Part shown: positions 1,503 to 20,724 of the stretch, piece by piece
Layout: each line of letters opens with the position of its first letter
How positions within the stretch are numbered: the stretch's first letter is position 1
Origin: a virus
DNA length: 20,724 nucleotides
Reading direction: 5' to 3' (one strand)
Virus record (IMG/VR): IMGVR_UViG_3300022746_000405
Coordinates: 1 to 20,724 of that record
The notes under the pieces: generated by a model
Seen by the model: the letters and a program-made list of their open reading frames with translations, nothing else
Database searches by the model: none
What the model was told of the DNA's origin: nothing
Program-made: the position numbers and the translations under genes

Positions 1503-3278
1503 TCACGGGGCGGTTGCCTTCAGAGGCTGCATGGTTTGCTTTCGCCAGCCATCCACGGCGACCGCCAAGTCGCCGACAGCCTTATCGGATGTCCAGCGCT
1601 CCCAGAATTCAACGGTGCCACTGTTAGGTCTATGCTCGGGCATAGACACACGAATCCGCGTCGGCAACAGACTGGCGTCTCCGACAACTAGCGCCTCACC
1701 TGTGTCAAGCACAGGCAGTAGGTCACCGAATCCCGCCAAGCTGTCCGGCAGCAGCCTTCGTACCACTGACTGGTCGTCCCCATTAGTCAGGCGCATGGTC
1801 ACTAGGTTATTGCACTGACTCAGTACAGTCCGGTTGACCTCAGAGGGCCGCTGGCTAATAACAACCAATCCAACGCCATATTTGCGGCCTTCCTTAGCGA
1901 TTCTCTCGAAGATTTCGACGGAGATCTCTCCCGCCCCGCCTGCCTGTTGCCGCTCGGGGATATAAAGGTGTGCCTCGTCGCAGAAAATTGCGATGGGATG
2001 GCGCATTGAAGCTTCGGTCCACTGCTGCACGGAGAAAGCGAGCTTAGCGACCAGACTCACCATCAGTGGCAGCACATCCGACGGAACCTCTGAGAAGTCG
2101 ATAACCTTTACTCCCCCACCGCCATCAGCCTGATCGACCGACCCTGCCAGCAAAGCCTTTACCAATCGATCGAGCCAATCAAACGTCTGCGTTTCATCGG
2201 CGCCTTGAAACAGGAAACCCAGCCTCCTGTCCGTACGCTTGTTCTCCAATCGCTGGATCATCCGACTCAGCTTGCCATTGAACTCGCCAGCCTTCTCTGT
2301 TCCGGCGCGCGCACCTGGCACCATTTCCTCGTTCAGCTCACTCAGAACTTCAATGACCCCAGTGAGGTCGAAAGGAATCGGGCTGTCAATCGTGAAATTG
2401 TCGAGAACGTCTTTACGGCCCTGCGCCTCAAGATATTTTTGCTTAGCTGCAAGGATGGTTCGCGACATGACCATAGATTGGTTTGGTGCGTTCTGATCGG
2501 ATCGCTCGACAAACATCGACGTCATGGCTTCGTAACCGAGCAACCAGTACGGCAGAAAGATTACTCCGTGGTCAATAGATGCCTTGCCAGTTAGATCGAC
2601 CGGCCCTGCAATGCGGAAGTGTCGAAAGCCCTTCGAGGCCAACGGGGCGTACTCTCCGTGGATGTCGAAAACGATCGCATTTGCGTTCGGAAGGGCTGCT
2701 ACTTGCTCGAGAATCCGGGCCGTTGTCCAGGACTTGCCAGAGCCTGTGCTGCCGACAATGACTGCATGCCGTTGGAAAAATTTGTTGCCGTTTAAGAAAG
2801 CGTCAGCGCTTTCATCTAAGGTGTAGTGGCCGAGTGTGAGCTTCTGCCCTTCGCCCGAAATGTTCGCAATTACGCGCATAAATGCCGTCAACCGTGCTCC
2901 TTCAAGGGCAAAGCAGTTGGCATCAATCTCTGGAACTGTCTCAAGCGTACGCAGGAACACGTTATCGCGGACCCCAATCTTGTCCATGAGTGTGCCGATT
3001 AGCCCGATACGCACCAAGTTGAGTTCAGCGATGCGATCACCATCAAGATCGTCTTCTGTATCGATGGGGTTTCCCTTGCCATCGACTGCTGTGCGCGTGA
3101 TTTTCTGGATGATGCCAATCAGATGCTGACCAACGCGACTGCTTTGCAACACGGCCAACCGATTGACCTGCAGTTTGCGCAGTCGCTCTACATCGTCCAC
3201 CGCGATAACGACTGTTGCGGTATCCACGGACCGGACACGCCCAAGCGATTCGTTGTCTTTGTAATCGAGGATGCTCAT
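1503..3278 (-). CDS. herA: HerA-type ATPase of a SIR2-HerA defence system
   Basis: The product has 591 residues and the layout of HerA/FtsK-clade ATPases. An N-terminal beta-barrel (HAS-barrel-like, about residues 10-110) is followed by a RecA-like core. The Walker A motif GSTGSGKS is at 176-183 and Walker B AIFCDEAH has its acidic pair at Asp434-Glu435. A sensor-like stretch VVISQRPSEVN follows. HerA forms hexameric rings on DNA. In SIR2-HerA systems it assembles with the SIR2 partner into a large complex whose NADase, and in some cases nuclease, activity responds to phage infection. Here it is the second gene of the operon, starting 6 bp after the stop of the SIR2 gene, so the two are almost certainly co-transcribed. 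Length and motifs look complete. The housekeeping HerA-NurA pair is an alternative family context, but the SIR2 partner argues for defence. Confidence 0.92.
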   Translation of the reverse strand: MSILDYKDNESLGRVRSVDTATVVIAVDDVERLRKLQVNRLAVLQSSRVGQHLIGIIQKITRTAVDGKGNPIDTEDDLDGDRIAELNLVRIGLIGTLMDKIGVRDNVFLRTLETVPEIDANCFALEGARLTAFMRVIANISGEGQKLTLGHYTLDESADAFLNGNKFFQRHAVIVGSTGSGKSWTTARILEQVAALPNANAIVFDIHGEYAPLASKGFRHFRIAGPVDLTGKASIDHGVIFLPYWLLGYEAMTSMFVERSDQNAPNQSMVMSRTILAAKQKYLEAQGRKDVLDNFTIDSPIPFDLTGVIEVLSELNEEMVPGARAGTEKAGEFNGKLSRMIQRLENKRTDRRLGFLFQGADETQTFDWLDRLVKALLAGSVDQADGGGGVKVIDFSEVPSDVLPLMVSLVAKLAFSVQQWTEASMRHPIAIFCDEAHLYIPERQQAGGAGEISVEIFERIAKEGRKYGVGLVVISQRPSEVNRTVLSQCNNLVTMRLTNGDDQSVVRRLLPDSLAGFGDLLPVLDTGEALVVGDASLLPTRIRVSMPEHRPNSGTVEFWERWTSDKAVGDLAVAVDGWRKQTMQPLKATAP

Positions 3279-3284
3279 AGGTAT

Positions 3285-4316
3285 TCACCCAGTGATAAGT
3301 GGAAGGAATTGGTCAAGGCGCCAATAGGATTGGTCAGTCAGCTCCAAGCCATCGGGAAATTCGTGACTGAACATGCGCGTGCCGTTTTTTGATTCCTCGA
3401 GTGCTACGTAACGGCTGCAGCGTCCGCTTTTTAGAAACCGATGAGCCGTGGAGCTAATTTCCTTGGTGATAAGTACCAACGGGACCTCTGGCCGCGTGCA
3501 GCGTTCCATCATTAGCGGCTGCAGGTGATCATCATTGAAGCCGTAGCCGATGCATAAGAAGGCGTTGGCACGAGCGACTGCATCGTCTGCGCTGTGCATC
3601 GCGCTGCGGAATGGCTCGTCGTGGGTGCGCCGGTATTTTTCAGTGCCAGGCGTGACTATCGCAGGGGTGAAGCCACAAGGGACAGTCCCCAAGGGGGGGA
3701 GCGCTACGATGGAGCCGTCTCTTCCGCTGAACCAGCCCAGAGAGCCATGAACCTTCCAGACGTTAACCGTCCGCGCCTGCCGTCGCCCAACATGGATTCG
3801 GGGCAAATCAACTGCACGCGAGCCGAACATGCTGAAAGTAAAACCAGTGTAGGCGCTATAGCCGGCCGCCTCTGCGGCGTACTCAGCAAGACGGTCGTAG
3901 TTCGGAGTCACGACTTGGAGCTCCATGGCTGTGCTGCGTAGCATGTGCTGAAAGAGCTGACTGAGCGGTAGCAAGCGTCGGTCGGTCAGTACCTGCTCGA
4001 AAACCTGGAAGTCCGCTGCATTGAGGAACTTCCAGGTAGCGTGCACGATGTGCTCAAGCACTTCAGGCGTCACGTTGACGCCAGTCAGCGCCGATTCAAG
4101 GTCCATCTTCTGGACTTTGTCCAGGAAGTCTCTCCATCCCGTGAGGTGTGGTTCGGACTGACAAGGAGCTGGCAGGATTGAGGAAGCAAGATGCTTGCCC
4201 AACGGACCCATACCTGGAATGCCGTGCGCTACTGATGCGCCGCTGCCCAACAGAATGACAGGCAATTTTCCGATGCAGTCCTGTATTAGCAACTGCATTG
4301 ATTCCATTTCGTCCAT
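3285..4316 (-). CDS. sir2: SIR2-domain NADase of a SIR2-HerA defence system
   Basis: The product has 343 residues. The N-terminal Rossmann entry motif GSGASVAHGIPGM (24-36) fits the NAD-binding loop of SIR2-like proteins. TPNYDRLAE carries Asn139, and WKVHGSLGW carries His190; this Asn/His pair is the usual catalytic set of defence SIR2 proteins. A late segment FLCIGYGFNDDHLQ matches the conserved GYGFxDxH element of the SIR2_2-type family. Defence SIR2 domains hydrolyse NAD+ and starve the infected cell. This gene leads the two-gene operon; the HerA gene starts 6 bp after its stop. The ATG at 4316 has a G-rich stretch (AGGGGT on the coding strand) about 8 bp upstream. About 230 bp separate it from the right-hand long repeat, which leaves room for its own promoter. 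Confidence 0.92.
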   Translation of the reverse strand: MDEMESMQLLIQDCIGKLPVILLGSGASVAHGIPGMGPLGKHLASSILPAPCQSEPHLTGWRDFLDKVQKMDLESALTGVNVTPEVLEHIVHATWKFLNAADFQVFEQVLTDRRLLPLSQLFQHMLRSTAMELQVVTPNYDRLAEYAAEAAGYSAYTGFTFSMFGSRAVDLPRIHVGRRQARTVNVWKVHGSLGWFSGRDGSIVALPPLGTVPCGFTPAIVTPGTEKYRRTHDEPFRSAMHSADDAVARANAFLCIGYGFNDDHLQPLMMERCTRPEVPLVLITKEISSTAHRFLKSGRCSRYVALEESKNGTRMFSHEFPDGLELTDQSYWRLDQFLPLITG

Positions 4317-4588: not shown

Positions 4589-5089
4589 ATGCGAGAGCGC
4601 GAGAAAGAACGGATTCAACGGGTTAAGGATGCACAAAAGCGCCTTGAAGAAATCAAAACGCGTATCCGGGAAGAGACAGTTACCGATTTTGTTGGCGACA
4701 AGTTAACCACTCGTTTCCCGCTGTACAGCCGGGAGGTGCAAGCACTGGAAACACTGATTGAACGCAATTAGCGCTGGGTCATCAAGCCCAGAAAGAAGAA
4801 AACCCCGAAGTTACCTCCAACTGGCATCACGACCGATTCAGCCTTGTTTACAGACCAGATGCTTGCCGCCAGATGGCACTGCTCGACGTCTCGACTTCAA
4901 TATTGGCGCTCCAATGATCAAGGGCTGCCCTACCTCAAGATGCTTGGCCGTGTGCTCTATCGAATTGAAGACATACAGGCATACGAGCAGCAGTCGATGG
5001 TCTTCCCTCAAACCCTGCAAAACCAAGATAACAAGCCTGCTGAACTGGGCCGCGAGCACGTACAACCAGACAAAACAGATTCAAGCTGA
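4589..5089 (+). pseudogene. Second copy of the helix-turn-helix gene, interrupted by an in-frame TAG
   Basis: The frame is collinear with the intact copy at 488-988 and of identical length (501 bp). A TAG at 4769-4771 replaces the CAG codon for Gln61. Upstream of it 60 residues (coiled-coil part) are readable. Downstream the frame stays open to 5089 and preserves the helix-turn-helix region nearly unchanged. No other disruption is visible. An internal start at ATG 4859, which would give a protein beginning MLAARWHC, could still yield part of the DNA-binding domain but would lack its first helix. The nonsense change looks recent compared with the overall divergence between copies. Suppression of the TAG cannot be excluded. 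The start has a better ribosome binding site (GAAGAGG) than the intact copy. Confidence 0.8.
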
Positions 5090-8944: not shown

Positions 8945-10306
8945 ATGACCTACGATTCGCCTCGCTTCCGCGCAATGGACGACGCTTTATTAGCGCTGGG
9001 TGTGTCGCCAACAGCCGCGCTCTACCTTGATAGATGTCAGGTCGACACGCCGAGCCCTTTGGTTAGAAAAGTCTGGGATATCGTCAACAAGATAAGAGGC
9101 CCTGTTGGCAAGGTTGTCGATTTTGGTGCGGGTGATGCCCGCTTTGCAAAATATGGTCACTACAAGTCATACGTGGGATACGAGATTGATCCCTCTAGAT
9201 GCTCCCTGAAGAATCTGCCTGGGCATGCGGAGGTAGTAAATGCCTGTGCATTCTCTGAAGACATTTGTGATGCGAGCTTGTCGATCGGCAATCCGCCCTA
9301 TGTTCGAAATCAAGATCTGCCTGAAGGCTGGAGACAAAAAGCTGCGGCAAAAATTCAACAGCGAATTGGAGTGAAGGTATCTGGTCTTGCCAACGCTTGG
9401 CAGTATTTCTTTCTGCTGTCATTGGCGAGCACCGCAGAGGATGGTTTGGTTGCCTTGGTCATACCCTACGAGTGGGTGTCTAGACCATCCTCAGAAGCCT
9501 TGCGCGAGTACATTAAAAAATGTGGCTGGAATGTAGATGTCTACCGTTTGGGCGACAAGACATTTGACCGTGTCCTTACTACTTGTTCGATAACCATCGT
9601 CGACAAGAAGGCACGGGAAGGTGTCTGGCACTACTACCGCGAAAACGAAGACGAGAGCTTTTCGCTAATGCGCGCTCTAACGGGCAGCAACCGCAAGCTG
9701 CTGTCATACGATCGCTCAAAGAAGGCCTTGATACGTGCAAAACGCGGACTAAGTCCAGGTACACAGACCTACCTCACGCTGACTGAGGGGGAACGAGCAA
9801 GATGTGGCTTGAAAATTGGTACAGATGTAGTCCACTGCGTCACTAGCCTGAAGTCTATCTCCAACGAAACAGAGCTTCTTGATGAAGCTACTTTTCAGCG
9901 AGATTTTATTGATGCAGGAAAAAAATGCTGGCTGATAAGGACTGACAAAAAACCATCGGTCAAGCTGCAGCGTTATTTGGACAGCGTACCAGCCAAAGGA
10001 AGGCAAACAAGTACATGTACTAAACGCGACGTCTGGTGGGCCTTCACTATGCCCCAAAAACCAGCACTTCTCATGGCCACTGGGTTTAGGGTGCGCCCCA
10101 AAGTAGTTCGCAATGAGGTCGGCGCGATGGCACTCGGAGGGGTATGTGGTATTTACGGTACAAGTGACGCAAAAACCACTAAAAAAATTGCTCAATTTCT
10201 TCGCAGCGAAGACTATAAAGGGCGCGTTGTTCCGCACGCAAATGGCCTACTTAAATTAGAAATCAACCAAATCAACTCGTTGCTTAACTCGATGACCGAA
10301 TCGTGA
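8945..10306 (+). CDS. N6-adenine DNA methyltransferase (NPPY type, TaqI/Eco57I-like)
   Basis: The product has 453 residues. Motif I is DFGAGDARF (59-67), motif II is YEID around residue 80, and motif IV is NPPYV (116-120), the hallmark of adenine-N6 methyltransferases. A hydrophobic ALVIPYEWV follows, as in the TaqI/Eco57I group. The C-terminal 250 residues would be the target recognition part; a late AMALGGVCGIYG resembles that found in related enzymes. It transfers methyl groups from S-adenosylmethionine to adenine in a specific DNA site, probably to mark self DNA. No restriction endonuclease domain is visible in it or nearby. Its stop overlaps the start of the GHKL gene in GTGA (10303-10306), so the two are translationally coupled. 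AT content is higher than in the neighbouring phage genes, suggesting separate ancestry. Confidence 0.85.
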   Translation: MTYDSPRFRAMDDALLALGVSPTAALYLDRCQVDTPSPLVRKVWDIVNKIRGPVGKVVDFGAGDARFAKYGHYKSYVGYEIDPSRCSLKNLPGHAEVVNACAFSEDICDASLSIGNPPYVRNQDLPEGWRQKAAAKIQQRIGVKVSGLANAWQYFFLLSLASTAEDGLVALVIPYEWVSRPSSEALREYIKKCGWNVDVYRLGDKTFDRVLTTCSITIVDKKAREGVWHYYRENEDESFSLMRALTGSNRKLLSYDRSKKALIRAKRGLSPGTQTYLTLTEGERARCGLKIGTDVVHCVTSLKSISNETELLDEATFQRDFIDAGKKCWLIRTDKKPSVKLQRYLDSVPAKGRQTSTCTKRDVWWAFTMPQKPALLMATGFRVRPKVVRNEVGAMALGGVCGIYGTSDAKTTKKIAQFLRSEDYKGRVVPHANGLLKLEINQINSLLNSMTES

Positions 10307-12567
10307 AAACAGCCCTACCCACCACAACCTCATCAAATCCTATTCTCGACTCTGGGGAAGAATCCTTCACTATTGAAAGCCGCATTATTCGGGAATTTGG
10401 TGAGCGCTTAGTTAAACACCCTGAGGTAGCGTTGCTTGAACTGGTAAAGAACGCGTATGACGCCGATTCCCCATCGTGTACCGTTGCCCACAATTACCCC
10501 GAGCACATAACCGTTACCGATACCGGTTGCGGAATGACGTTAAAAGAATTCCAAACAGGTTGGATGCGGATCGGTACAAGCTCGAAAGAATCCAAAGCAA
10601 CCAGTAATAAGTTCAAGCGACCGATATCTGGAGAGAAGGGGATTGGACGGTTCGCTGTGCGCTACTTAGGTCAGCATTTAGAGTTAAAAACTACAGCCTA
10701 TGACACCGCTCGAAAGTGCAATACAACATTGATTGCAAAATTCGATTGGCCTCAATTTGATCTCAATGAAGACCTAGGAACAGTCAAAGTACCCTACAAA
10801 TTACACAGGGCATCAGATGACACCCCACTCGGAACAATTCTGCGTATCACTCAGCTGAGATCAAGCACAGAGAATATTGATTTTAAGCAGGTACAGACAG
10901 CATCTCTTGGGTTGCTATCCCCGTACCAAGTTTTGCTTCGAAAAAATGAGAAAGACGATCTTCTTGACTTGCCAGATCCCCCCCAAGGCTTAGATACTGG
11001 ATTTAATCTTGTCATTTACTCCCAAGATGAAGATGAAGAGAAAGAGGAGTCGGTAGCGGAGAAGATACTTGAAAATTATGTCTTCCGCTGCATAGTCTCT
11101 GTACGAGGTGGCCGTTTGGCGCTTCGCCTGTATCGGCGGGGCGAGCGCAAAGCATGGTTAAAAATCAATGACGTATATGAAAATACGTTTGACCAAGCCT
11201 ACGCCGATATCAGATTTTTTCCGGCTCGAAAAGGCACATTTACTGCCATGCCAGTTGATGGCCGCGAAGCTCGTGCCTGGGTGAAAAATCATTCTGGTGT
11301 TGCGGTCTTTGATCGTGACTTCCGCGTTTTACCATATGGCACTTCGGGTGACGATTGGTTGAGGTTAGCTGCGGACGCGTCGCGAAATGAGCGCAATCCA
11401 GTGTCAAGTCTTGCACGGCGACATTTCCCAATGGATGAAGAAACTCAGCGATCCACAGCGTTGAACTACATGCTCCGCCTGCCACACCCAAGCCAGCTAG
11501 TCGGGGCCGTACAAGTATTTGGGGTTCGCAGCGAGGAGAAACAAGGAGATATAGGATTATTTGCAACCGCCGATCGCCAAGGATTTGTTCAGAACAAGGC
11601 GTATCTGCAGCTTGTCGATGCCGTTCGCAGCGCCGTAGAGGCGATTGCGTATGCAGATAGAGAATTGCAGCAAGAAACAGAGGCACGCGAAATTGCTGAT
11701 CTTGCAAAAATCGCTCAGAACGAAACAGCGGAAGCCATCGCGCAGGTCCGAACCAACGCTAACCTCACATCTTCTGAGAAAGCATCACTTGTTAAGCGCC
11801 TAGTAAACGTCCAAGAAGCCACCGAACGCCATGATAATTTGGTCAAAAGTCGGGATACGGCCCTTGAAGTAATGAGCCTATTGGGCGTAGTCGCCGGATT
11901 TATGACTCATGAGTTTGGAACTGCGATTCATGATTTAGAGCGCTCCCACGAGATATTGTCAAAGCTTGGCAAGCGTGATGCCAGCATCGCCAAACAGGCA
12001 ACCGCTATTCAAACCCACATTACGGCACTCAAGGATTTTGTCGCGTATTCACAGGGGTACATAAAAGGTACATCCATTGTTCCTTCCAACCCGCTTCCCG
12101 CAGCCCCAAGAATCCGGCAGGTACTGAAGGTATTCGGAAAGTATGCGACTGATCGAAAAATCAATGTGGAAGTCGACGTCGCAGCGGATGTTAAGACACC
12201 CAGAATTCCGATATCCCTTTACAGTGGCATCGTTCTAAATCTCTACACAAATGCACTAAAAGCTGTAACTGCACGCTCCGGTGCGCCAGCGCGTGAAATT
12301 GCAGTTCGAGCGTGGAACGAAAAGAATATTCACAAACTGCAAATATCAGATACAGGCGCTGGTATTCCATCAGCTCTGGCGGAAAGAATATTCGATCCAT
12401 TGTTTACAACCACAGAAAGCAATCGTGATCCCCTAGGATCTGGAATGGGGCTTGGGTTGACATTGGTTCGCAAGGGAGCGAAAGCGTTTGGTGGAACTGT
12501 GAATTTAGTAAAACCACCACCGGGGTTTGAAACATGCTTTGAAGTGAAATTTCCAATCGGGGAGTAA
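10303..12567 (+). CDS. Double GHKL ATPase: MutL/MORC/Hsp90-type N-module plus histidine-kinase-like C-module
   Basis: The product has 754 residues, start GTG 10303 inside the methyltransferase stop. The N-terminal module has ELVKNAYDAD (46-55), DTGCGM (73-78) and GEKGIGRFA (110-118), the N, G1 and G2 boxes of an Hsp90/MutL/MORC-like ATPase. A charged, coiled-coil-prone middle (about 440-530) leads to FMTHEFG, with His536 where a dimerisation helix of a sensor kinase would hold its phospho-acceptor. The C-terminal module has LNLYTNALKAV (Asn646, Asn650), SDTGAGI (Asp683) and GSGMGLGLTLV (712-722), the N, G1 and G2 boxes of a histidine kinase. There are no membrane helices, so it is cytoplasmic. 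It presumably passes a signal to the receiver-like protein encoded 3 bp downstream. Whether His536 is phosphorylated is inference. Confidence 0.8.
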   Translation: MKTALPTTTSSNPILDSGEESFTIESRIIREFGERLVKHPEVALLELVKNAYDADSPSCTVAHNYPEHITVTDTGCGMTLKEFQTGWMRIGTSSKESKATSNKFKRPISGEKGIGRFAVRYLGQHLELKTTAYDTARKCNTTLIAKFDWPQFDLNEDLGTVKVPYKLHRASDDTPLGTILRITQLRSSTENIDFKQVQTASLGLLSPYQVLLRKNEKDDLLDLPDPPQGLDTGFNLVIYSQDEDEEKEESVAEKILENYVFRCIVSVRGGRLALRLYRRGERKAWLKINDVYENTFDQAYADIRFFPARKGTFTAMPVDGREARAWVKNHSGVAVFDRDFRVLPYGTSGDDWLRLAADASRNERNPVSSLARRHFPMDEETQRSTALNYMLRLPHPSQLVGAVQVFGVRSEEKQGDIGLFATADRQGFVQNKAYLQLVDAVRSAVEAIAYADRELQQETEAREIADLAKIAQNETAEAIAQVRTNANLTSSEKASLVKRLVNVQEATERHDNLVKSRDTALEVMSLLGVVAGFMTHEFGTAIHDLERSHEILSKLGKRDASIAKQATAIQTHITALKDFVAYSQGYIKGTSIVPSNPLPAAPRIRQVLKVFGKYATDRKINVEVDVAADVKTPRIPISLYSGIVLNLYTNALKAVTARSGAPAREIAVRAWNEKNIHKLQISDTGAGIPSALAERIFDPLFTTTESNRDPLGSGMGLGLTLVRKGAKAFGGTVNLVKPPPGFETCFEVKFPIGE

Positions 12568-12569
12568 AA

Positions 12570-13667
12570 ATGAAGCAGACCATACTGCTGATTGACGATA
12601 AATCAGAGTTTTTAGCTCCGCTAGCAGAAGCACTGGCGCAGAAACTTGGAGAGACGGCAAATGTTGTACCCTGGGTTCCGAACAGTACCGAACGGCCTTT
12701 GGAGAAGTTTGAGCAACTTGTACAAGATAACGATGTCAGACTGGTAGTCACTGACTACGATTTGACGCAGCAAGGCCAACTTGGTTTTTTTGGAGCGACC
12801 GTAGTTGATTGGTGTCAGGTCAAAGGCATTCCAGTAGGGGATTTTTCGCGCGGCAATGCTAGCTCGCTTGCAACTGAGCCCAATCTTTTTGAGCTTAGAG
12901 TCCCCATCCAGTCCAACGATGCAGCTGTTGACTTCATTGCTAGTGTATTTCGTGGCTTCATTGAAATCCGTGCCAACATTGACAGCAACCCCGTACTACT
13001 CAAGCAGAGGAGCCCTGCAGCGGCATTGGCTCTGATGTTAGGGGTTGGGCATTTAGAGAGTCAATTTTCTCAATACGGTACCCGCTATGGAGGTGCAAAC
13101 AGCGCGTTGATTGACAAGTTTGTTGAGACAGCTCATCGAGACGTCACCCCGGATCCATCCCGCAAAGCGACATTGCTTGCGTACATCATGGGACACTTGC
13201 TTCATAACGCTGTGCTGCGCTTTCCGGGACCCATCGTAAGTTCTGAAGCCCTTGCTGCATACCTAGCTGTGAACCAATCCGACCAAGAAAAGTACTTGCC
13301 GATGTTCGCACCAGCTCTTTTCAAAGGTCCATTTTCCGAACTGGACTCCTACTATTGGACTCATTCTGTGGATGAAGTTCTCGCTCAGTACGACGAGAAA
13401 GTGTCCGAAGACATGCAGTTTGAGAGTACTGGTGAGTACAACAGAATTCGAGTTGAAACTGCGCTGCAAACCACGTTGAAACAATCCACAGACTGCCTCC
13501 GATGTAACGGAAAAAATGGTGGCTTTTGGTGCCCATTTTCACGCAAAGCTGTATGCCAACGCTCGGATTGTTCAATTGTCTCCAATGTCTGGATTCCGTC
13601 TGGGGCACGATTGGCTCGATTCGAGCGAGACTTCTATGAAGAGTGGGCACCAATTCTGGGAATGTGA
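12570..13667 (+). CDS. Receiver-like response regulator with C-terminal cysteine cluster
   Basis: The product has 365 residues. It opens ILLIDDKSEF, with the acidic pair Asp9-Asp10, and continues to VVTDYDL, placing Asp62 as phospho-acceptor. The later IPVGDFSRG matches the Ser/Thr switch position, but the conserved Lys of the following KP pair is replaced (LRVP), so phospho-chemistry may be altered. After a helical middle of unknown family comes a cluster with Cys309, Cys312, Cys321, Cys329 and Cys334, which could bind zinc. No DNA-binding output domain is recognised. The start ATG 12570 has GGGGAG 6 bp upstream, overlapping the end of the kinase gene. The stop TGA shares one base with the next ATG (TGATG), showing coupling. 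It is probably the partner of the kinase-like protein; the output is unknown. Confidence 0.7.
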   Translation: MKQTILLIDDKSEFLAPLAEALAQKLGETANVVPWVPNSTERPLEKFEQLVQDNDVRLVVTDYDLTQQGQLGFFGATVVDWCQVKGIPVGDFSRGNASSLATEPNLFELRVPIQSNDAAVDFIASVFRGFIEIRANIDSNPVLLKQRSPAAALALMLGVGHLESQFSQYGTRYGGANSALIDKFVETAHRDVTPDPSRKATLLAYIMGHLLHNAVLRFPGPIVSSEALAAYLAVNQSDQEKYLPMFAPALFKGPFSELDSYYWTHSVDEVLAQYDEKVSEDMQFESTGEYNRIRVETALQTTLKQSTDCLRCNGKNGGFWCPFSRKAVCQRSDCSIVSNVWIPSGARLARFERDFYEEWAPILGM

Positions 13668-14386
13668 TGACATCCATGACACGCAATGAATTGACGGCTC
13701 GAAAGTTGCTCATACAACAGTGGAACAACATTCAGCCCCAACTGCAACGCTTAAACATGCCCGCCATCCGCCCGGCAGATGCGGAGGGACTTTTTAAATT
13801 GATCACACACTCCAAGGTTGCAGGTCAAATTGGCTTTGAGATAACGAATGTGACTTTCAATGTTCCAGAGCGCGCAAATGGTGCGACTGACATATATATC
13901 GTGGCGACAGGTCGCATTTATCTTGATGAAACTGCACTCAATCCGCCAAGCACGCTGAAGACTGTCAGCTTCGCAACTGAAGTTGGATACTTTCGCAAGA
14001 CCCGCAGAGGACTTGAACACGTTTACGGCGCTCACTACGATTTCGCCTTAGACGAAATCGGTCACCCGGTATTTCACGCACAACTTAAAAGCTACAACGA
14101 ACGTGGCCAGGAAGTGTCTGAGACCTTTCAACTCGGTTGTGAGTCAACCGATTGCGTCGGTGGCGTCTTGCGCACAGTGCGATTACCCACCGCACAGATG
14201 GATTTTTTTGCCCTAATTGTTCAAATCTGTGCCGATCATTTATTGAGTAAAGATTCAGGAGACGAAGAGCGCAGGGCATTTGCTGATCTCCGAAAAGTTA
14301 GCCAGGACATACAGGGCGCCGGCTATTTGGCTGCTCGGCTGACAAACACTGCAGGCTGCATGCGGGCACCGCACTGGTACCCTTGA
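13667..14386 (+). CDS. Unrecognised fourth protein of the methyltransferase/GHKL operon
   Basis: The product has 239 residues from ATG 13667, which overlaps the preceding stop in TGATG. I do not recognise the family. It is soluble, with no signal peptide or membrane helix. The N-terminal part is helical (ARKLLIQQWNNIQPQLQRL). A central region with alternating strands leads to HYDFALDEIGHPVFHAQLK, where HPVFH could hold a metal or be catalytic. Two cysteines follow in QLGCESTDCVGG. It ends with a helix and a polar tail, AGCMRAPHWYP. The HPxxH motif recalls DUF2290-like proteins, but the resemblance is loose. As the last gene of a coupled operon it is a candidate effector. GTG starts at 13643 and 13664 are possible but would overlap the previous gene further. 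Confidence 0.7.
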   Translation: MTSMTRNELTARKLLIQQWNNIQPQLQRLNMPAIRPADAEGLFKLITHSKVAGQIGFEITNVTFNVPERANGATDIYIVATGRIYLDETALNPPSTLKTVSFATEVGYFRKTRRGLEHVYGAHYDFALDEIGHPVFHAQLKSYNERGQEVSETFQLGCESTDCVGGVLRTVRLPTAQMDFFALIVQICADHLLSKDSGDEERRAFADLRKVSQDIQGAGYLAARLTNTAGCMRAPHWYP

Positions 14387-14398
14387 AAATAGGTTAAG

Positions 14399-14542
14399 TC
14401 ACAAGTAACTTTGAAAATTCCTCCAACGCTCATACGCCATGAACAGATCAGGACGTAGGAGCGAGGCCTTCTGCTTGCGCAGCTCGGCATTTACTCGCCG
14501 TCGACTGGGATACGTTTCATAGCCATCCAAACGAATTCTCAC
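14399..14542 (-). CDS. Possible small protein at the end of the prophage lysis region (47 residues)
   Basis: A short minus-strand frame starts at GTG 14542, directly after an in-frame TGA, and stops at TGA 14401-14399. The peptide is RLDGYETYPSRRRVNAELRK followed by QKASLLRPDLFMAYERWRNF; it is basic and amphipathic and has the composition of a real phage protein. It lies 24 bp downstream of the Rz gene on the same strand, and its stop is 12 bp from the stop of the convergent operon. There is no good ribosome binding site and no family match I know. It could also be the tail of a decayed gene. Confidence 0.4.
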   Translation of the reverse strand: MRIRLDGYETYPSRRRVNAELRKQKASLLRPDLFMAYERWRNFQSYL

Positions 14543-14566
14543 TCAACACAAATACTAAAGTGATTA

Positions 14567-15061
14567 TTATTTCAAGGATGCGATTCGCTCATTCCAGCGT
14601 TGAATTTCGTACAGCATTAATGTCGTTTGCTCGGAATCTTTGATTAGTTGTGAACAACTTACTTCGACTCCATCATGGGAGGCAACAAATACCATGTCGG
14701 AGGTGCGTCCATCAACTCTTTGGGGAGCTGTGGGAACGGCGGACAAACGGGCTGAGCTGGGCTCGGACTTGTCGAGCACCCGCTCAGCCCCAAGAACAAC
14801 AGCACGACTAGCCAATAGGTTCGACTTCTTGCGATAGTCATCAGAGATCTCCTTAGATATTTGGTTTCGAACATGAGCCACATCGGCAGCGTGTTGCTCT
14901 TGCTTTGCTTGTGCAATCTGCACGATTTGCTTCTCAGCATCCCACTGGCGCTGCAGACGGTATTCCCCCATCTGCAGGCCTAGTAAAAACGCCATGAGAA
15001 GCAGCAGCCCCTTAAAAAGCAAGGATTTATTCAATTCGAGGAACGCACGAATCCAGCTCAT
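14567..15061 (-). CDS. Rz: Phage inner-membrane spanin (Rz-like)
   Basis: The product has 164 residues. One membrane helix lies at residues 14-31 (LLFKGLLLLMAFLLGLQMG), with a short cytoplasmic N-terminus. A long charged alpha-helical stretch follows (QRQWDAEKQIVQIAQAKQEQ), as expected for the periplasmic coiled coil of i-spanins. The spanin pair joins inner and outer membranes and fuses them in the last step of lysis of Gram-negative hosts. The start ATG overlaps the stop of the endolysin gene (ATGA). The second spanin gene lies inside this one in another frame, which is the classic Rz/Rz1 arrangement and strongly supports both assignments. Confidence 0.88.
   Translation of the reverse strand: MSWIRAFLELNKSLLFKGLLLLMAFLLGLQMGEYRLQRQWDAEKQIVQIAQAKQEQHAADVAHVRNQISKEISDDYRKKSNLLASRAVVLGAERVLDKSEPSSARLSAVPTAPQRVDGRTSDMVFVASHDGVEVSCSQLIKDSEQTTLMLYEIQRWNERIASLK
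14659..14841 (-). CDS. Rz1: Phage outer-membrane spanin lipoprotein (Rz1-like), nested within Rz
   Basis: The product has 60 residues from ATG 14841. The signal sequence TYWLVVLLFLGLSGC ends in the lipobox LSGC with Cys22 as the lipidation site. The mature part of about 39 residues is proline-rich (SPSPAQPVCPPFPQLP), as in Rz1 proteins. The whole gene lies within the i-spanin gene in a different frame on the same strand. An upstream ATG at 14940 in the same frame would add a polar N-terminus in front of the signal peptide and is unlikely. It is expected to anchor in the outer membrane and pair with the i-spanin across the periplasm. Confidence 0.85.
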   Translation of the reverse strand: MTIARSRTYWLVVLLFLGLSGCSTSPSPAQPVCPPFPQLPKELMDAPPTWYLLPPMMESK

Positions 15062-15522
15062 ACGCCCTCCCCGTCTAATGAAGCCAAGCCGTAGGTACCA
15101 ATCAAACGGATCAGCTTGTCGGCATAGTCAGGATCTGTCGCGTATCCAGCCTTTAGGAGTGCTCGAGCAAAGGTCTGAGCTGAGACGCACAGGAAGCAGT
15201 CTTTGTAGCGTGGGTTGCTCTTCAAGAATGCAGCATGGTCATCCACACTGGCCTGCCATGTGGGGTATTTGCGCCATTTAGCGGGCACGACAACCCACTG
15301 CCCTCGGATGAACTCTTTTGTGTCAAGCGTCACGGTCTCACCGCGCCACAAACTGTCTGCCTTAATCCCGAACAGATTCCTCGCCGTCTTGGTGAGCCCT
15401 GATTCACCCCAGCCAGACTCAAGCGCCGCCTGGCTAACCGTGATGCTGGCAGGTACGCCCGTGGACTTGCTGCAAGCCTGTGCTGCAGGCCCAATCAGCG
15501 AAATGAAGTCTTGTGGTTTCAT
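15058..15522 (-). CDS. Phage endolysin, GH73-type glucosaminidase
   Basis: The product has 154 residues. The fold signature is ITVSQAALESGWGESGLTK, with Glu35 as the likely catalytic acid, followed by NLFGIKADSLW. This matches the glucosaminidase domain of FlgJ and many phage endolysins, which cut the glycan strands of peptidoglycan. There is no signal peptide or membrane segment, so release depends on the holin. The start overlaps the holin stop (ATGA) and the stop overlaps the Rz start, making one compact lysis unit. The length suits a single-domain enzyme without a cell-wall-binding part. Confidence 0.85.
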   Translation of the reverse strand: MKPQDFISLIGPAAQACSKSTGVPASITVSQAALESGWGESGLTKTARNLFGIKADSLWRGETVTLDTKEFIRGQWVVVPAKWRKYPTWQASVDDHAAFLKSNPRYKDCFLCVSAQTFARALLKAGYATDPDYADKLIRLIGTYGLASLDGEGV

Positions 15523-15902
15523 AGCATCTCCCTCACATCTTTGGCAACCTCATCAATTGAGGCATCGCGCCTTTCCTCTATGAAGTTAAAAATCCACCGC
15601 ACCAATGCCCAGCCGGGCAAGCCGCAGGCAAAGATCAAACCACCCATGGCGCATAGGCCCACCGTTGAGAACGCCCAGTGGTGAAGCTGGAAATACTCAA
15701 TCGTGGTCGCACCACCGCCAATGCTTGAGACCACCGTACTGATCAACCCCACTGTCCACTCGCGCTTATCGCGAGGCGGCGTCATGAGCATGACAACGAC
15801 CGCAGCAAGCGTTGCACCACTGGCTGCGGCAGCAGCCGTTCCACCAAAGGCTTTGTATGCAGCGGCGGCTCCTGCCACTCCGCTACTCGTAGGTTCTGGC
15901 AT
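15519..15902 (-). CDS. Phage holin, three-helix type
   Basis: The product has 127 residues. Hydrophobic helices are visible at about 28-42 (GATLAAVVVMLM), 49-68 (WTVGLISTVVSSIGGGATTI) and 79-105 (STVGLCAMGGLIFACGLPGW), with an acidic, charged C-terminus (EERRDASIDEVAKD). The N-terminus is Ala/Gly-rich. Holins collect in the inner membrane and open it at a set time, letting the endolysin through. The call rests on position directly before an endolysin and spanins and on size and topology, not on a conserved motif. An intrinsic terminator lies just upstream. Confidence 0.75.
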   Translation of the reverse strand: MPEPTSSGVAGAAAAYKAFGGTAAAAASGATLAAVVVMLMTPPRDKREWTVGLISTVVSSIGGGATTIEYFQLHHWAFSTVGLCAMGGLIFACGLPGWALVRWIFNFIEERRDASIDEVAKDVREML

Positions 15903-15914
15903 TTGATAACTCCC

Positions 15915-15949
15915 AAAAAAATACCCGCCTGAATCACTTCAAGGCGGGT
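15915..15949 (-). terminator. Intrinsic terminator after the tail-tip gene
   Basis: On the minus strand an 8-bp perfect stem (ACCCGCCT with AGGCGGGT, 15942-15949 with 15923-15930) and an 11-base loop are followed by ATTTTTTT (15922-15915). It falls between the stop of the tail-tip gene (15968) and the holin start (15902). The lysis genes therefore need read-through, antitermination or a promoter close to the terminator. Confidence 0.85.
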
Positions 15950-15967
15950 TGTGAACAACTCGTTCGT

Positions 15968-18247
15968 TTATGTTTGATCAGCGGTATGAACGGAAGCGCT
16001 TTCGGCAACGCAGGTCACCTCCACCAAATCAGCTCGAGGTTTCACGCTCATGACGCGCGCCATCTGGGCCCAGGTCTGCCCCACCCCAAATGCAAAGTGC
16101 GTTCGCTCCTCACCTCCACCGGTTTGAATTGCAATGCTCGGCGTTTGCTGCAGCACGGCATGTCGTTCAGTAACTCCACGCGTCACACCAATCGGGTCTG
16201 TCACAGAACCATCTACGCGTCTCAAAGCGATGTAGTGATTCGCTCCTGTCTGCCAAGGCAAGCGCTCCGAACAGACCAACACCTTGGATGCACCATCCCA
16301 TGACAAAGCCTCACCACTGACACCCCAGCTGGGCATGTCATGACTGATGGCCACCAAGTCCCCATAGGTCGGAATCAGCCCTTCAAGCTCTGTCCTAAAA
16401 GTGATGATTCGTCTGCGATACCGATTGGCCGCCGCGATGTACCTGCCCTCGCGCATCGCTTGAGACTTGTCGGTACAACCAAAGAGCTTCAAGCGAGCAG
16501 GCTTAGAGAGGGCCGAACCCGCAAGGGCCACCGTGACTTCATCAGGCTTCCAGCTCTTGGGGTTGAAGTATTCAACCGTGACCGCATCCGCTGTTGCATC
16601 TCCCGGCATCACGTACTGAATCTTCAAACTACTGCGCACGATGTTTCGGGTGGAGAACAAGGCCACAGGGATGGTCTTGGGTTCATCTCGAACAATGCGC
16701 ACAATGCCGCCTTGCAGGAACGGAAGCGCACGTCCAGCTCTGGCAATCTGCCCCATGGCGTCCCAAACCGTTAGGTTCTGGTCAAACACGCCATTGAACG
16801 TATCACCACGCGCAGACCACACCCCATCCAGTCGAGCGAGTGCATTCAAGTCAATCTTTGCATCAGGCAACCCTGCCCCGTAACTCGAGCGCGCTGCATC
16901 TGCAAATGCCCAAGCAATCGAGCGAGTAGCTTGAGGTGAACTCCATCCTGTGGTCTTTGACCAAACAGGGAGCTTTCGAGTGACTAGGCAGTTCACCAAA
17001 CGAGATGATCTCTGCGACAAGTTATCCGTTGCGCGCATGCGCAATGCCAGCAAGGTCAAGTCCGATGGCAATGATGGATTGACCAGATAGCCCTTTGCTT
17101 GCCCCCAGCGAAGCTCATGCCCCGCACGGGTACTGGTGTCTTTGATGTCTAGCCTTTGAACACGCACCTCGTAGCGACCGGCACCCACTCCATATTTGTA
17201 GGTTCTACGTTGAGCTGTATTGGTAGCTGCCGAGTAGGACTCATCGGCAAGATGAAGCCATCCGGAGGTGGCATCACCATCGTCATTGATGGTTCTTGCC
17301 TCAACCTGCCATTGAACGGTTCGACTATCCAGCGTTCCACCATCAGTCGCGTAGTACAAGCCTCGCATCATTACAACGTCAATGCCAATCTGATTAACTT
17401 GGGTCCCCGCAGGGTTGAGCGCAAAGGGACCAATGATGCTGCCGCCCGTATCAGCGACGGCAATTAACTCCTGCCCCGTCACCTCAGCCGCTGTCACCAC
17501 ATCGTTGTTGAACAAGGTGTTTTGACCACCCGGCTCGATGACCTGTGCCTGCACTTCTTCAAACGATGCAATGGGGCTGTCATCAATCGACAGCTCTTCA
17601 AAATGGAAATGCCCAATGCCAATCACATGGAGCTGGTGCAGGTACTCTTCGTTGTTGACGTACTCCGTATAGGGCATCGCTGCCAAATCCGGATAAATCA
17701 GATGCTGCCCATACACAACAGGAATCGGCTGGGACAGGCGCCCATAGTTGCCACGCGCCTGCAGTGAGTAAGTTGGACTTGGTGAAGATGAGCTGGCTGT
17801 GGCATTGGGCAGGCTCTGATTTGGTAACGGCACCAAGGCATTCACGATGATGGAACCTGTCACAGCAATTGCGGTTGATGCCACCGAAGTCGCTACTGCG
17901 CCTGAATATCCGAAGGATGCGGCCAGCTCAGCGCCATAGGCGTTCGCCACAACCAAGACGGCAATCATCAGAACAGTCTGCAACGGGTTCTTACCCCCGC
18001 CTCCACCTCCTTGTGGCAGCGACACCAGTGCAATGACATCTCCAGCCTCAATGAGGGTCACGCAGCGTTCAGCCATTAGCACTGGCTTGCCGTTCTTGAG
18101 TACCAGCGTTGGTTGCTCAAAAACGACCTGCTCTTGGTGCATCCATTGGCTGATGGTTGGACTACCCTGAACGTGATGGACATCACGCTCTTGGGGATCG
18201 AATGGGTTTCGGAGCCAAACTACGACACCATCATTGCTGCTTGGCAT
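15968..18247 (-). CDS. TipJ/J-like phage tail tip protein
   Basis: The product has 759 residues. The N-terminal part contains SLPQGGGGGGKNPLQTVLMI, followed by hydrophobic stretches at about 90-110 and 117-142, which is typical of TipJ/host-specificity factor proteins. Then comes QARGNYGRLSQPIPVVYGQH, the conserved start of the tail-hub part. Further segments (TVWDAMGQIARAGRALPFLQ; ADAVTVEYFNPKSWKPDEV) match the tail hub region of lambda J relatives. It should form the distal tail tip that contacts the host. It is shorter than lambda J (1132 residues) and ends soon after the hub, so the receptor-binding portion is short or supplied by another gene; none follows before the terminator. Its start overlaps the NlpC/P60 gene by 28 bp. 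Confidence 0.85.
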   Translation of the reverse strand: MPSSNDGVVVWLRNPFDPQERDVHHVQGSPTISQWMHQEQVVFEQPTLVLKNGKPVLMAERCVTLIEAGDVIALVSLPQGGGGGGKNPLQTVLMIAVLVVANAYGAELAASFGYSGAVATSVASTAIAVTGSIIVNALVPLPNQSLPNATASSSSPSPTYSLQARGNYGRLSQPIPVVYGQHLIYPDLAAMPYTEYVNNEEYLHQLHVIGIGHFHFEELSIDDSPIASFEEVQAQVIEPGGQNTLFNNDVVTAAEVTGQELIAVADTGGSIIGPFALNPAGTQVNQIGIDVVMMRGLYYATDGGTLDSRTVQWQVEARTINDDGDATSGWLHLADESYSAATNTAQRRTYKYGVGAGRYEVRVQRLDIKDTSTRAGHELRWGQAKGYLVNPSLPSDLTLLALRMRATDNLSQRSSRLVNCLVTRKLPVWSKTTGWSSPQATRSIAWAFADAARSSYGAGLPDAKIDLNALARLDGVWSARGDTFNGVFDQNLTVWDAMGQIARAGRALPFLQGGIVRIVRDEPKTIPVALFSTRNIVRSSLKIQYVMPGDATADAVTVEYFNPKSWKPDEVTVALAGSALSKPARLKLFGCTDKSQAMREGRYIAAANRYRRRIITFRTELEGLIPTYGDLVAISHDMPSWGVSGEALSWDGASKVLVCSERLPWQTGANHYIALRRVDGSVTDPIGVTRGVTERHAVLQQTPSIAIQTGGGEERTHFAFGVGQTWAQMARVMSVKPRADLVEVTCVAESASVHTADQT

Positions 18248-18663
18248 GGCTCACCTCGAAATGCATAAAACCCCTCGACTCGCCAACCATGACGGTCAAG
18301 CGCCCACAAGTCCTGAAACACCACCCCCACACCTTGCGCGCAATGCAGCACGCCTCCACCATCGATGTCTAGCCAAACACCGACATGCACCGGATATCTG
18401 GACTGACGCATCAGCACGGCATCCCCATGTTTTGGCGTTGGCACACGCTGCCAGCGTTTTCGCTCGGGGTGTTCGTTGAATGTCTTGAGCACCACACGCA
18501 GATCCATTGCATCCACTGGGATAAGCGGAAGCTCCCGTCCGAAGTGATTTCTCTGCACCCATAAAAAAAGGCCCCAGCAGTCAAATGACTCGGGGCCTCG
18601 TCCGCCTGCTATCCATGGGCGACCTATGTATCGGTGCGCCCAGTAGCCGTTTGTTGGTTTCAT
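18220..18663 (-). CDS. NlpC/P60-family phage tail assembly peptidase (lambda K-like)
   Basis: The product has 147 residues. The catalytic Cys29 is in ESFDCWGLFLW and the His93 in YPVHVGVWLD, the standard NlpC/P60 Cys-His pair; VLHC supplies a possible third polar residue. In lambda-like tails this domain (gpK) is cytoplasmic during assembly and later part of the tail tip, where it may cut peptidoglycan cross-links during DNA entry. Here it is followed with overlap by the tail-tip gene, the expected K-to-J order (with I absent). The DUF1833 gene ends 10 bp before its start. The N-terminal region is short, without the JAB/Mov34 domain that lambda K also carries. Confidence 0.82.
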   Translation of the reverse strand: MKPTNGYWAHRYIGRPWIAGGRGPESFDCWGLFLWVQRNHFGRELPLIPVDAMDLRVVLKTFNEHPERKRWQRVPTPKHGDAVLMRQSRYPVHVGVWLDIDGGGVLHCAQGVGVVFQDLWALDRHGWRVEGFYAFRGEPCQAAMMVS

Positions 18664-18673
18664 GACTTACCCA

Positions 18674-19216
18674 TCACCGGGCAAGTCCCGGAAACTCTGT
18701 CGAGGTGTACAACCGACCTGGAAACGCTTTATTTCCGATATCGACCATGCGCGCCCTTGCGGTCACTCGCATCACATCAGCCTCCACCTCAGTCAGTACC
18801 AACGTGATGGGAGGATCCATCTGCGGGCCCTCGACATCGTTTGACAAGTACGGGCGATAAGTGACTTCGATGGAAGCTTCTGACTCAGACGCAGCATCAA
18901 GGTGTTTGACGATCTCGCGAGAGACGTTATCCAAGGTCAGCACGACCTCAGGAACAGGTGCAATGTCCACAGGCGGCAAATCCAAATCAAACCCCATGGC
19001 TACAAACCTCACTGTCTGGTTTGGATTCAACGGTGCCGAAGCTTCGAGACGTGCAAAGAGGTCTTGTTGATCTCGCACCACCCGGATAGCTGTTGTCACG
19101 CCCGACTCGTTTTTAAAGTCAGGGTGACGCAGCTCTAAGGTGTGCAGGATCACCACATCTGAAGGTGAACTCGCGTACGCCTCTTTCAACGCATCACTCA
19201 ACGTCACATCAGGCAT
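18674..19216 (-). CDS. DUF1833-family phage tail protein
   Basis: The product has 180 residues beginning TLSDALKEAYASSPSDVVIL, then LELRHPDFK, then a RVVRD strand. This is the pattern of DUF1833 proteins found between minor tail proteins and the NlpC protein in siphophages. VRFVAMGFDLDLPPVDIAPV and VTARARMVDIGNKAFPGRLY are further conserved-looking segments. Its role is presumed to be in the tail tip, comparable in position to lambda gpL. Its start overlaps the end of the radical SAM gene by 8 bp, so the two are co-translated. No membrane or signal sequence is seen. Confidence 0.75.
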   Translation of the reverse strand: MPDVTLSDALKEAYASSPSDVVILHTLELRHPDFKNESGVTTAIRVVRDQQDLFARLEASAPLNPNQTVRFVAMGFDLDLPPVDIAPVPEVVLTLDNVSREIVKHLDAASESEASIEVTYRPYLSNDVEGPQMDPPITLVLTEVEADVMRVTARARMVDIGNKAFPGRLYTSTEFPGLAR

Positions 19217-20558
19217 GCTCTACCTTGATCGGGATGACACGACGCTCTTTCGCTTCGGAGTGCTCACTGACCAATCCAAAGATATCTCGCCGCTCCTGCG
19301 GGAAATCGCCCTCGATGTAGAACGGGAAGCAGCCAGTAAGGAACTCAATGCCTGCGGCTAAAAACGGCACGTTGTCGGCATAGGAGGCATCGCACCCTGC
19401 TGTCCACAAGGGGCCGTCCAAAAACATGCATGAGCCTTTGCACAACTGAAGCACAGGACAATTTGAACAACCGTCTCGCTTGCTCCAATGCGTGGCGCTG
19501 CGCATCTTGACTGCTTGAAGCTGAGAGATGTGCCCAATCTTGTGTGACTCACCGTTTGGAGCTACAGCGGCTGCGCTCACGTTCTGGCAAGTCAACACAT
19601 TGCCGTTTAGATCAACAACGAGGTTGTCGGTGCGGTCCATGCCGCACTTTTGACCCAACGCACTGGCAGGACGGCCTTGGGCCACAGACTCCACAAAGTC
19701 CATGATCTTCTTGCGACCGATATCAAAACTGGTCACCGCACCTGCACGCAACTCCTTGAACGCAAAGGCACTGAAAGTGACGCGCTCCCCTGAAGTCTGA
19801 AACGTGGAAGCCAATCCACCCTCGTCATACGGATCAATGAAAGCGCCCTCGCCAATGACGACATCCTCACCAAAGCGTTCGCGCAGCCATGCCTGCACAT
19901 GCGCGCGACTTGGATTGTTGGCGTGAATCATGGCGTTGATGCTGATTCGACCCTCAGGCTTCAAGCGCGCGTACAGATCAAAGATGGCAGCTCGCTTTTG
20001 TGGGTCATCCAAAGGATCAGCACCGCGTGCGTGATAACCAGGGCCATCATGCGACAACCCCACTGAGAATCCCAAACGGTCAATCCATGCGTTCTTGTCT
20101 GCATCTAACAGACTGCCATTGGTAATCATGCTGAACTGAGCCTTGGGGTACAACGCCCTCAACCGCTCAGCCAGTGGTTTTAAGGTCTTCCAGTAAACCA
20201 GCGGTTCGCCACCCCAGAACTCAATGCGCTCTGGAGGTTCAATCAGCGCATCGACCAATGAGCTCAAAAACGCATCAACGTCTTCTGGATTGGTTTGATC
20301 TGCATGCGGCACAAACCGTTGTGAGCAGTAGGTGCAGGCGTAATTGCAAAGCAGGCCAAGACTGATCTTGAGCACTCGCACATTGCCCTTGCGACCGGGT
20401 TGATCTTTGGCAACCACCGTCGCATCACGCCAAGCGCGCGCTTTGACTGGAACGACCGACTGGCCATTGCTCCAAGCAAGGCTAGAAGTTTGGTTGTTGT
20501 AGACCAACGAGTCTTCTGTGCCGTCAAGCTTGATCACATAGATGCGGAACTCAGCCAT
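19209..20558 (-). CDS. Radical SAM/SPASM enzyme within the phage tail module
   Basis: The product has 449 residues. A leader of about 60 residues is followed by LLCNYACTYCSQ with Cys71, Cys75 and Cys78, the CX3CX2C cluster that binds the SAM-cleaving 4Fe-4S centre. RIEFWGGEPLVYW is the GGEP SAM-contact motif. A C-terminal SPASM domain shows Cys305, Cys324 (GNVLTC), Cys364, Cys367, Cys373, Cys377 (CX2CX5CX3C) and Cys389, the full seven-cysteine pattern for two auxiliary clusters. Such enzymes modify peptides or proteins, for example as RiPP maturases or sulfatase activators. It overlaps DUF1833 by 8 bp downstream and the oxygenase-like gene by 8 bp upstream, so it is embedded in the tail transcription unit and is not a later insertion between operons. 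The substrate is unknown; a tail protein is the obvious guess. Confidence 0.9.
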   Translation of the reverse strand: MAEFRIYVIKLDGTEDSLVYNNQTSSLAWSNGQSVVPVKARAWRDATVVAKDQPGRKGNVRVLKISLGLLCNYACTYCSQRFVPHADQTNPEDVDAFLSSLVDALIEPPERIEFWGGEPLVYWKTLKPLAERLRALYPKAQFSMITNGSLLDADKNAWIDRLGFSVGLSHDGPGYHARGADPLDDPQKRAAIFDLYARLKPEGRISINAMIHANNPSRAHVQAWLRERFGEDVVIGEGAFIDPYDEGGLASTFQTSGERVTFSAFAFKELRAGAVTSFDIGRKKIMDFVESVAQGRPASALGQKCGMDRTDNLVVDLNGNVLTCQNVSAAAVAPNGESHKIGHISQLQAVKMRSATHWSKRDGCSNCPVLQLCKGSCMFLDGPLWTAGCDASYADNVPFLAAGIEFLTGCFPFYIEGDFPQERRDIFGLVSEHSEAKERRVIPIKVEHA

Positions 20559-20724
20559 GGATGCGCTCCACTTTGATATTGAAAAGAATATTCATGAACG
20601 GTTGCTCCCCAAAGTAGGGTTTCTGAAAATGAATCGCTCTGGCATCAAAGGCGATCAACAGACCGCGATGAGGTTTGATCCAGAACTTGGATGGGGACTC
20701 CCAAGGCATGAGCAACCCAGCAAA
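20551..20724 (-). CDS. Oxygenase-like protein, C-terminal part (cut by window edge)
   Basis: The open minus-strand frame enters from the right edge and ends at TGA 20553-20551, overlapping the radical SAM start by 8 bp; 57 residues are visible. The segment HRGLLIAFDARAIHFQKPYF, followed by a strand MNILFNIKVE, looks like the last part of a 2-oxoglutarate/Fe(II) oxygenase jelly roll, where GxLxxF leads to the distal metal-binding His. The usual Arg about ten residues further is not seen (Gln instead), so the assignment is tentative. It could also be a phage structural protein of unknown family. The main part of the protein lies outside the window. Confidence 0.4.
   Translation of the reverse strand, partial: FAGLLMPWESPSKFWIKPHRGLLIAFDARAIHFQKPYFGEQPFMNILFNIKVERIHG

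Follow-up and report, generated by a model that had tools for sequence, protein, structure and literature searches.

A radical SAM/SPASM enzyme of a lambda-like tail operon is genomically linked to Asn-Cys-repeat fibre tips and is a candidate tail-fibre maturase

Results

The enzyme gene lies in a tail operon that continues beyond the window

The window (the whole stretch of DNA analysed, 20,724 nucleotides) is a 20.7 kb viral fragment that ends inside an operon carrying a radical SAM/SPASM enzyme gene (Table 1). Downstream of this gene, the DUF1833, NlpC/P60 and J-like genes form an ordinary lambda-like tail-tip module. The enzyme ORF is complete and overlaps both of its neighbours by 8 bp: the upstream gene, whose stop codon is at 20551-20553, and the DUF1833 gene, which starts at 19216. 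To read past the window edge we used a viral contig, L002, which matches the window at 100% identity across 9513 bp (window 11212-20724) and extends upstream. The operon order in L002 is fibre (876 aa), NC-tip (199 aa), 280-aa protein, oxygenase-like protein, enzyme, DUF1833.

Table 1. Genes and features of the tail operon in the window and in its continuation, contig L002
Feature	Position	Strand	Evidence or remark
Radical SAM/SPASM enzyme, 449 aa	19209..20558	minus	PF04055, TIGR04085, phrog_1802, cysteines, AlphaFold model
2OG-Fe(II)-oxygenase-like gene, 3' end, cut by the window edge	20551..20724	minus	complete (203 aa) at L002:5408-6019
DUF1833 minor tail protein, directly downstream of the enzyme	18674..19216	minus	PF08875 E 1.1e-42, phrog_396
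NlpC/P60 tail-assembly protein	18220..18663	minus	tail module
J-like tail-tip/hub protein	15968..18247	minus	tail module
Window edge; proposed substrate beyond	20719..20724		continuation read from L002
NC-repeat fibre tip, 199 aa	L002:3959-4558		ends ...RYNCNCDCNCC / ...GAYGTRYNCNCDCNCC
280-aa beta-rich partner	L002:4569-5411		start at 4569 read from translation

The 199-aa NC-tip protein matched phrog_36881, a family without function (E 2e-10), and more weakly the tail-fibre families phrog 8443 and phrog 33642 (E 0.0015-0.005). By its tail-fibre family match and its position in the operon, the proposed substrate is a phage tail fibre. Eleven related contigs share the L002-type tip; in these tips the terminal Cys positions are kept and the short stretch just before them is strongly variable. 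In L002 the variable stretch covers about residues 140-180 and, as in the relatives L004-L016, it directly precedes the conserved repeat; a loop in contact with the receptor would be expected to show such variation.

The enzyme belongs to the radical SAM and SPASM families but to no named maturase family

The enzyme matched PF04055 (radical SAM superfamily; 32.8 bits, cut-off 29.5), TIGR04085 (SPASM domain; 36.4 bits, cut-off 27) and, across residues 59-415, the phrog_1802 profile (radical SAM domain-containing protein; E 2.6e-58). The three cysteines of the SAM-cluster motif, C71-X3-C75-X2-C78, are invariant in 175 aligned relatives, and the seven SPASM cysteines (C305, C324, C364, C367, C373, C377 and C389) are kept in 174-175 of the 175. 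The initial annotation, which had described an intact SAM cluster, seven SPASM cysteines and 8-bp overlaps in a lambda-like tail cluster, was therefore accurate on each of these points. The gene is also not confined to this one genome, as its relatives are encoded on 565 viral and 94 genomic stretches.

The AlphaFold model of the enzyme (pLDDT 92.9) matched solved structures of anSME best, followed by CteB and ChlB, all of them SPASM enzymes, and epimerase and other SPASM folds gave weaker matches. Among the NCBIfam families, the closest score was to PapB (NF047865), at 60.3 bits against an equivalog cut-off of 340. Scores were likewise far lower than the cut-offs of the anaerobic sulfatase maturases (TIGR03942; 48.6 against 349.45 bits) and QhpD (TIGR03906; 40.1 against 453), and the cut-offs for geopeptide and other named maturase families were also missed. 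The enzyme belongs to radical SAM, SPASM and phrog_1802, but to no named maturase family; of the characterised families, those nearest to it are SPASM enzymes that form thioethers or oxidise side chains (PapB, CteB, anSME). It would be expected to work like a peptide or protein maturase. When we inspected the N-terminus of the predicted model, we found three short strands (residues 3-9, 15-21 and 26-29) and no helix before the SAM core. We saw no RRE-like leader-binding fold (winged helix-turn-helix) there, so the enzyme appears to lack the hallmark of an RRE-dependent RiPP maturase.

The oxygenase-like gene and the 280-aa partner are frequent companions

The fragment of the oxygenase-like gene present in the window had no family match on its own. 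Once completed from L002, the 203-aa gene was found to encode an H98-N-D (HxD) motif and H178, with both His residues invariant. Its profile matched a set of relatives with 99.1% probability and those relatives match PF13759 (39.4 bits, cut-off 27), while the 203-aa gene itself has no Pfam match. These features suggest that the upstream gene is 2OG-oxygenase-like, as had been proposed from the fragment. Oxygenase-like genes are present in 133 of 186 loci, with two or more in 33, and we regard the oxygenase as a possible second tailor, frequent but optional. The family of the 280-aa partner occurs in 123 of the 186 loci. Its model is confident and beta-rich, and a fold search returned weak matches only, some of them to Ig-like or intimin domains; it may be a virion surface protein. 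Sequence searches against solved structures gave no useful match for either the oxygenase or the 280-aa partner. At two other loci, desaturase-like ORFs lie between the fibre and the enzyme (L045 5134-6654 and L052 3796-5948; His-box recognised by eye, no Pfam match).

Because the oxygenase and the 280-aa partner are each missing from part of the 186 loci, and because the repeat gene and the enzyme gene are in some loci directly adjacent with nothing between them (L120, L113 and L116), the constant pair is the fibre repeat and the enzyme. Conservation of the gene pair singled out in the initial annotation, enzyme plus oxygenase, thus gives way to conservation of the enzyme with the fibre repeat.

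Enzyme and Asn-Cys repeat are linked in both directions

To measure this linkage starting from the enzyme, we took loci with at least 4.5 kb of upstream sequence and searched for an ORF encoding an Asn/Asp-rich xC repeat, a pattern that includes variants such as NCNCNCDCCC. Of the enzyme loci, 57/60 viral and 49/62 genomic ones have such an ORF upstream on their own strand, compared to 0/60 and 2/62 on the opposite strand. In two of the three viral loci without such an ORF, the tip is degenerate (TACNCAGGACDCG in L066, TNCACACEC in L071). The 13 genomic loci without a repeat include several with a broken or cut enzyme gene (L221, L279, L280, L281) and others from outside a phage context, such as L236 and L253 next to type I secretion-like genes. 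Since some of the repeat-less loci are in non-phage contexts, the enzyme family would have other substrates too. Loci L266-L269 likewise hold enzyme relatives in non-phage settings and, like L236 and L253, have no Asn-Cys protein nearby; the type I secretion-like genes of those two loci were called by eye.

In the reverse direction, we scanned viral contigs for stretches that encode NCNC[ND]C[ND]C, without regard to the enzyme. The enzyme was found downstream on the same strand, at a median distance of 1.2 kb, for 45 of the 48 scorable ORFs; in the remaining three, the motif lies 50 to 189 residues from the C-terminus. The linkage is strict in both directions, with counts that are not independent, as the loci are kin to each other.

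We then compared DUF1833 loci with at least 4 kb of upstream sequence and found that the enzyme and the repeat are both present in 19 and both absent in 15, with either one alone in 0 (Fisher p 5e-10, a value that overstates independence since the loci are related). The occurrence of the same tail module without the enzyme gene had been named beforehand as something that could speak against a modification pathway; here, all 15 such modules also lack the Asn-Cys fibre and so support the link between enzyme and fibre. One of the 15, L297, has a near-identical DUF1833 gene and no enzyme; we considered it as a counterexample, but the contig seems to be rearranged and does not make a clean case. 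DUF1833 genes about 70% identical to that of the window were found in both the enzyme-bearing and the enzyme-less groups, and the fibre-enzyme cassette therefore appears to be exchanged as a unit. As the enzyme tracks the fibre and not DUF1833 in this natural swap, we rejected DUF1833 and the tail-tip protein as substrates.

The signature is an Asn-Cys dipeptide, and the repeat mostly lies near the fibre C-terminus

Across 134 distinct tips, the residue before a repeat Cys is Asn in 71%, Asp in 12% and Ala in 9%. Outside the repeat, 644 Cys residues of these fibres have Asn at -1 in 68% of cases as compared to a background of 7.5%, and at offsets other than -1 Asn is nowhere above about 21%. 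The same offset comparison revealed no Asn-before-Cys preference for the Cys residues of the neighbouring partner and oxygenase families. With Asn enriched at -1 of both repeat and non-repeat Cys, the signature is the Asn-Cys dipeptide, both inside the repeat and outside it.

The repeat lies at most 12 aa from the C-terminus in 124/134 tips. In nine more, a domain follows the repeat. Eight of these show a Hint-type start, with CFPAGT or a similar sequence and then MADG, and the ninth (L187, of the same protein type as L119) has an S74 chaperone. Of the eight, JWF exceeds the Pfam cut-off for Hint, whereas L155 and L173 score below it. Hint and S74 are known self-cleaving domains, and the presence of two unrelated self-cleaving domain types at the same spot suggests that the repeat must end up C-terminal. 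The loci with a domain directly after the repeat are L082 (9844-11295), L083 (9853-11295), L155, L173 and L272-L276 for the Hint type, and L119, L164 and L187 for S74.

When the repeat is removed, the fibre bodies of the 134 tips fall into seven groups with no similarity detectable between groups. The JWF fibre matches phrog_16641 (tail fiber; E 5e-9), and collagen or phage-tail repeats are present in related fibres. Most of the proposed substrates are fibre proteins of roughly 100 to 700 aa that carry the repeat at their extreme C-terminus; they do not have the RiPP layout of a short precursor with a removable leader. A small encoded precursor peptide, which the initial annotation had allowed for, was not found in the window; the relatives show a fibre instead. 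Short ORFs, of 70-80 aa, were seen only in contigs of the L097, L103 and L157 type and in L198. They end in CNCNCNC or close to it, have between one and several radical-SAM relatives in the neighbourhood, and may represent a peptide form of the system.

Discussion

A candidate maturase for the tip of the tail fibre

Taken together, these data are best explained if the enzyme is a maturase of the tail-fibre tip that modifies the Asn-Cys run, probably by forming Cys-Asn/Asp thioethers, a reading to which we give a probability of about 0.7. Gene neighbourhood and residue patterns are what point to a modified tip throughout. The proposal of a modification pathway in the tail operon stands, in that the genes look like a protein-modification module. 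As to the target, a tail protein remains likely, but in the window's lineage it would be the upstream fibre tip and not DUF1833, the tail tip or a small peptide.

The substrate would be the fibre tip protein encoded three genes upstream, ending in a run of Asn-Cys (sometimes Asp-Cys) dipeptides, and from the genomic linkage we consider it very probable that this repeat is what the enzyme acts on. The enzyme would take hydrogen from residues of the run, most likely at the Asn/Asp side-chain carbon, and Cys sulphur would be joined to that carbon, so that a structural virion protein would carry several thioether bridges of a ranthipeptide-like kind. By analogy with known systems, we put the odds that the product is a Cys-Asn/Asp thioether at about even. 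In a run such as NCNCNC, every Asn is followed by a Cys at +3, which by itself gives the NxxC geometry, but the isolated Asn-Cys pairs elsewhere in the fibres speak for a role of the -1 neighbour too. Asn directly before Cys is neither of the known spacings, NxxC and CX3D, and the exact bond may therefore differ from known ones. Where the 2OG-oxygenase-like neighbour is present, it may hydroxylate the same fibre; Asn/Asp or the stalk as its target is a guess. The stiffened tip at the far end of the fibre would serve in binding the host surface, a role towards which we lean, and in some phages the Hint or S74 domain would cut itself off and leave the repeat as the true C-terminus.

Comparison with known systems

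Radical-SAM enzymes are known to form a beta-thioether between Cys23 and Asn20 in NxxcA (PMC8326336), six Cys-to-Asp bridges in freyrasin (PMC9413430) and, in the case of QhpD, Cys-Asp/Glu thioethers in a non-RiPP protein (PMC8326336). The window enzyme resembles the ranthipeptide maturases PapB (freyrasin), CteB (SCIFF) and NxxcB in its SPASM radical-SAM architecture (PapB, CteB) and in having a substrate with Cys plus Asp/Asn/Thr motifs where several bridges are possible. In contrast to these maturases, it falls far below the PapB cut-off, has no RRE-like domain that we could see, and would act on a large virion fibre with Asn at -1 and not on a short leader-core peptide. With QhpD, the maturase of quinohemoprotein amine dehydrogenase, it would share a non-RiPP protein as target, although the target of QhpD is an enzyme subunit and the one proposed here is a phage structural protein. 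Its best overall structural match is anSME (TM about 0.55/0.65), but it misses that family's cut-off and there is no sulfatase in the window operon.

The closest counterparts in isolated phages are in Achromobacter phages JWF and 2-1, which encode phrog_1802 enzymes with 47-49% identity over the full length and an NC-repeat fibre upstream. The JWF fibre differs from the window's in having a Hint domain after the repeat, as is also the case in phage 2-1 and others, and another partner gene replaces the oxygenase. These enzymes are annotated only as sulfatase maturase or hypothetical; in the JWF deposits, the enzyme is an "anaerobic sulfatase-maturating enzyme" and the fibre a Hint family protein.

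Two sets of phage radical-SAM genes were considered and rejected. Campylobacter phage genes gave partial matches of 27% over the core only, with no Asn-Cys protein among the neighbours read, and the enzyme of Thermus phage Cumys matched at 33%, again in the core only, with a His/Asp-repeat protein and no Asn-Cys repeat upstream. In Cumys (L202, 3982-6272), the radical-SAM gene follows that repeat protein (HSDTHSDSHSD...), and a comparable stretch is found at the end of the enzyme; a repeat-protein substrate, instead of the published guess of DNA modification, seems possible.

Alternative explanations

The chemistry could be of another kind with the same enzyme and substrate: Cys/Asn oxidation (anSME-like formylglycine), epimerisation or C-C crosslinks, which would leave many modified residues and no sulphur bridges. 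The best structural match, anSME, oxidises a Cys or Ser side chain, the weaker matches include epimerase and other SPASM folds, and the enrichment of Asn at -1 only corresponds to no known thioether spacing. We nevertheless consider this unlikely, if with an appreciable chance, given the low anSME family score (48.6 against 349) and the lack of an encoded sulfatase nearby; moreover, Cys oxidation alone leaves unexplained why Cys is paired with Asn/Asp, the residues joined in known beta-thioethers.

HxH motifs bind iron in the tip of the T4 long fibre, and alternating Cys at the tip of a trimer would suit metal binding, so the Asn-Cys run could be a metal- or Fe-S-binding tip of a trimeric fibre while the enzyme targets the 280-aa partner or a collagen-like stalk, collagen repeats in some fibres being a classical hydroxylase target. 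This is improbable, however, as the partner is found in only two thirds of the loci (123/186) whereas repeat and enzyme are constant and sometimes adjacent, and as repeat and enzyme are gained and lost together in the natural swap. More improbable still is an auxiliary metabolic or nucleic-acid-modification gene that sits in the tail operon by chance and is linked by operon inheritance, because, although phage radical-SAM genes are often so described and a Thermus phage radical-SAM paper proposes DNA modification for a different module, that of Cumys (PMC11437467), the window enzyme has a SPASM domain and affinities to peptide maturases, accompanies the fibre repeat in very different phages in the enzyme-blind reverse scan and does not simply follow the shared tail module.

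Significance of a modified fibre tip

If the enzyme is indeed a fibre-tip maturase, the chemistry would be of a known kind and the setting on a fibre tip appears to be new. Radical-SAM/SPASM chemistry has been described for small bacterial peptides and for a few enzymes; a maturase dedicated to the tip with which a virion touches its host would extend it to a new location. In the full-text literature that we searched (mostly open-access journal articles), we found no published description of the pairing of this enzyme with an Asn-Cys fibre. The same reading would account for a large family of phage genes labelled "unknown" or "auxiliary metabolic", would supply a sequence rule for finding substrates and would point to unusually built natural fibre tips; its prediction is directly testable in phage JWF, which is already isolated. 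More broadly, we find it fairly probable that tailed phages build the host-contact tip of the fibre as a radical-SAM-crosslinked Asn-Cys ladder, a virion-borne, RiPP-like structure that would be widespread and swapped as a cassette with its maturase, with optional oxygenases and sometimes a Hint or S74 domain that exposes the modified C-terminus.

Other features of the window

Elsewhere in the window, a HerA ATPase and SIR2 pair at 1503-4316 gave strong matches to the PADLOC HerA and SIR2 models and is an anti-phage defence pair. A near-identical ORF (MREREKERIQRVKDAQKRLEEI...) flanks these genes at 488-988 and 4589-5089, the second copy being split across frames, which suggests a duplication or a mobile unit. 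At 8945-13667, a single operon contains a methyltransferase-like gene, a GHKL-ATPase/histidine-kinase-like gene (weak restriction-model matches) and a third gene without a match, a possible defence or signalling island.
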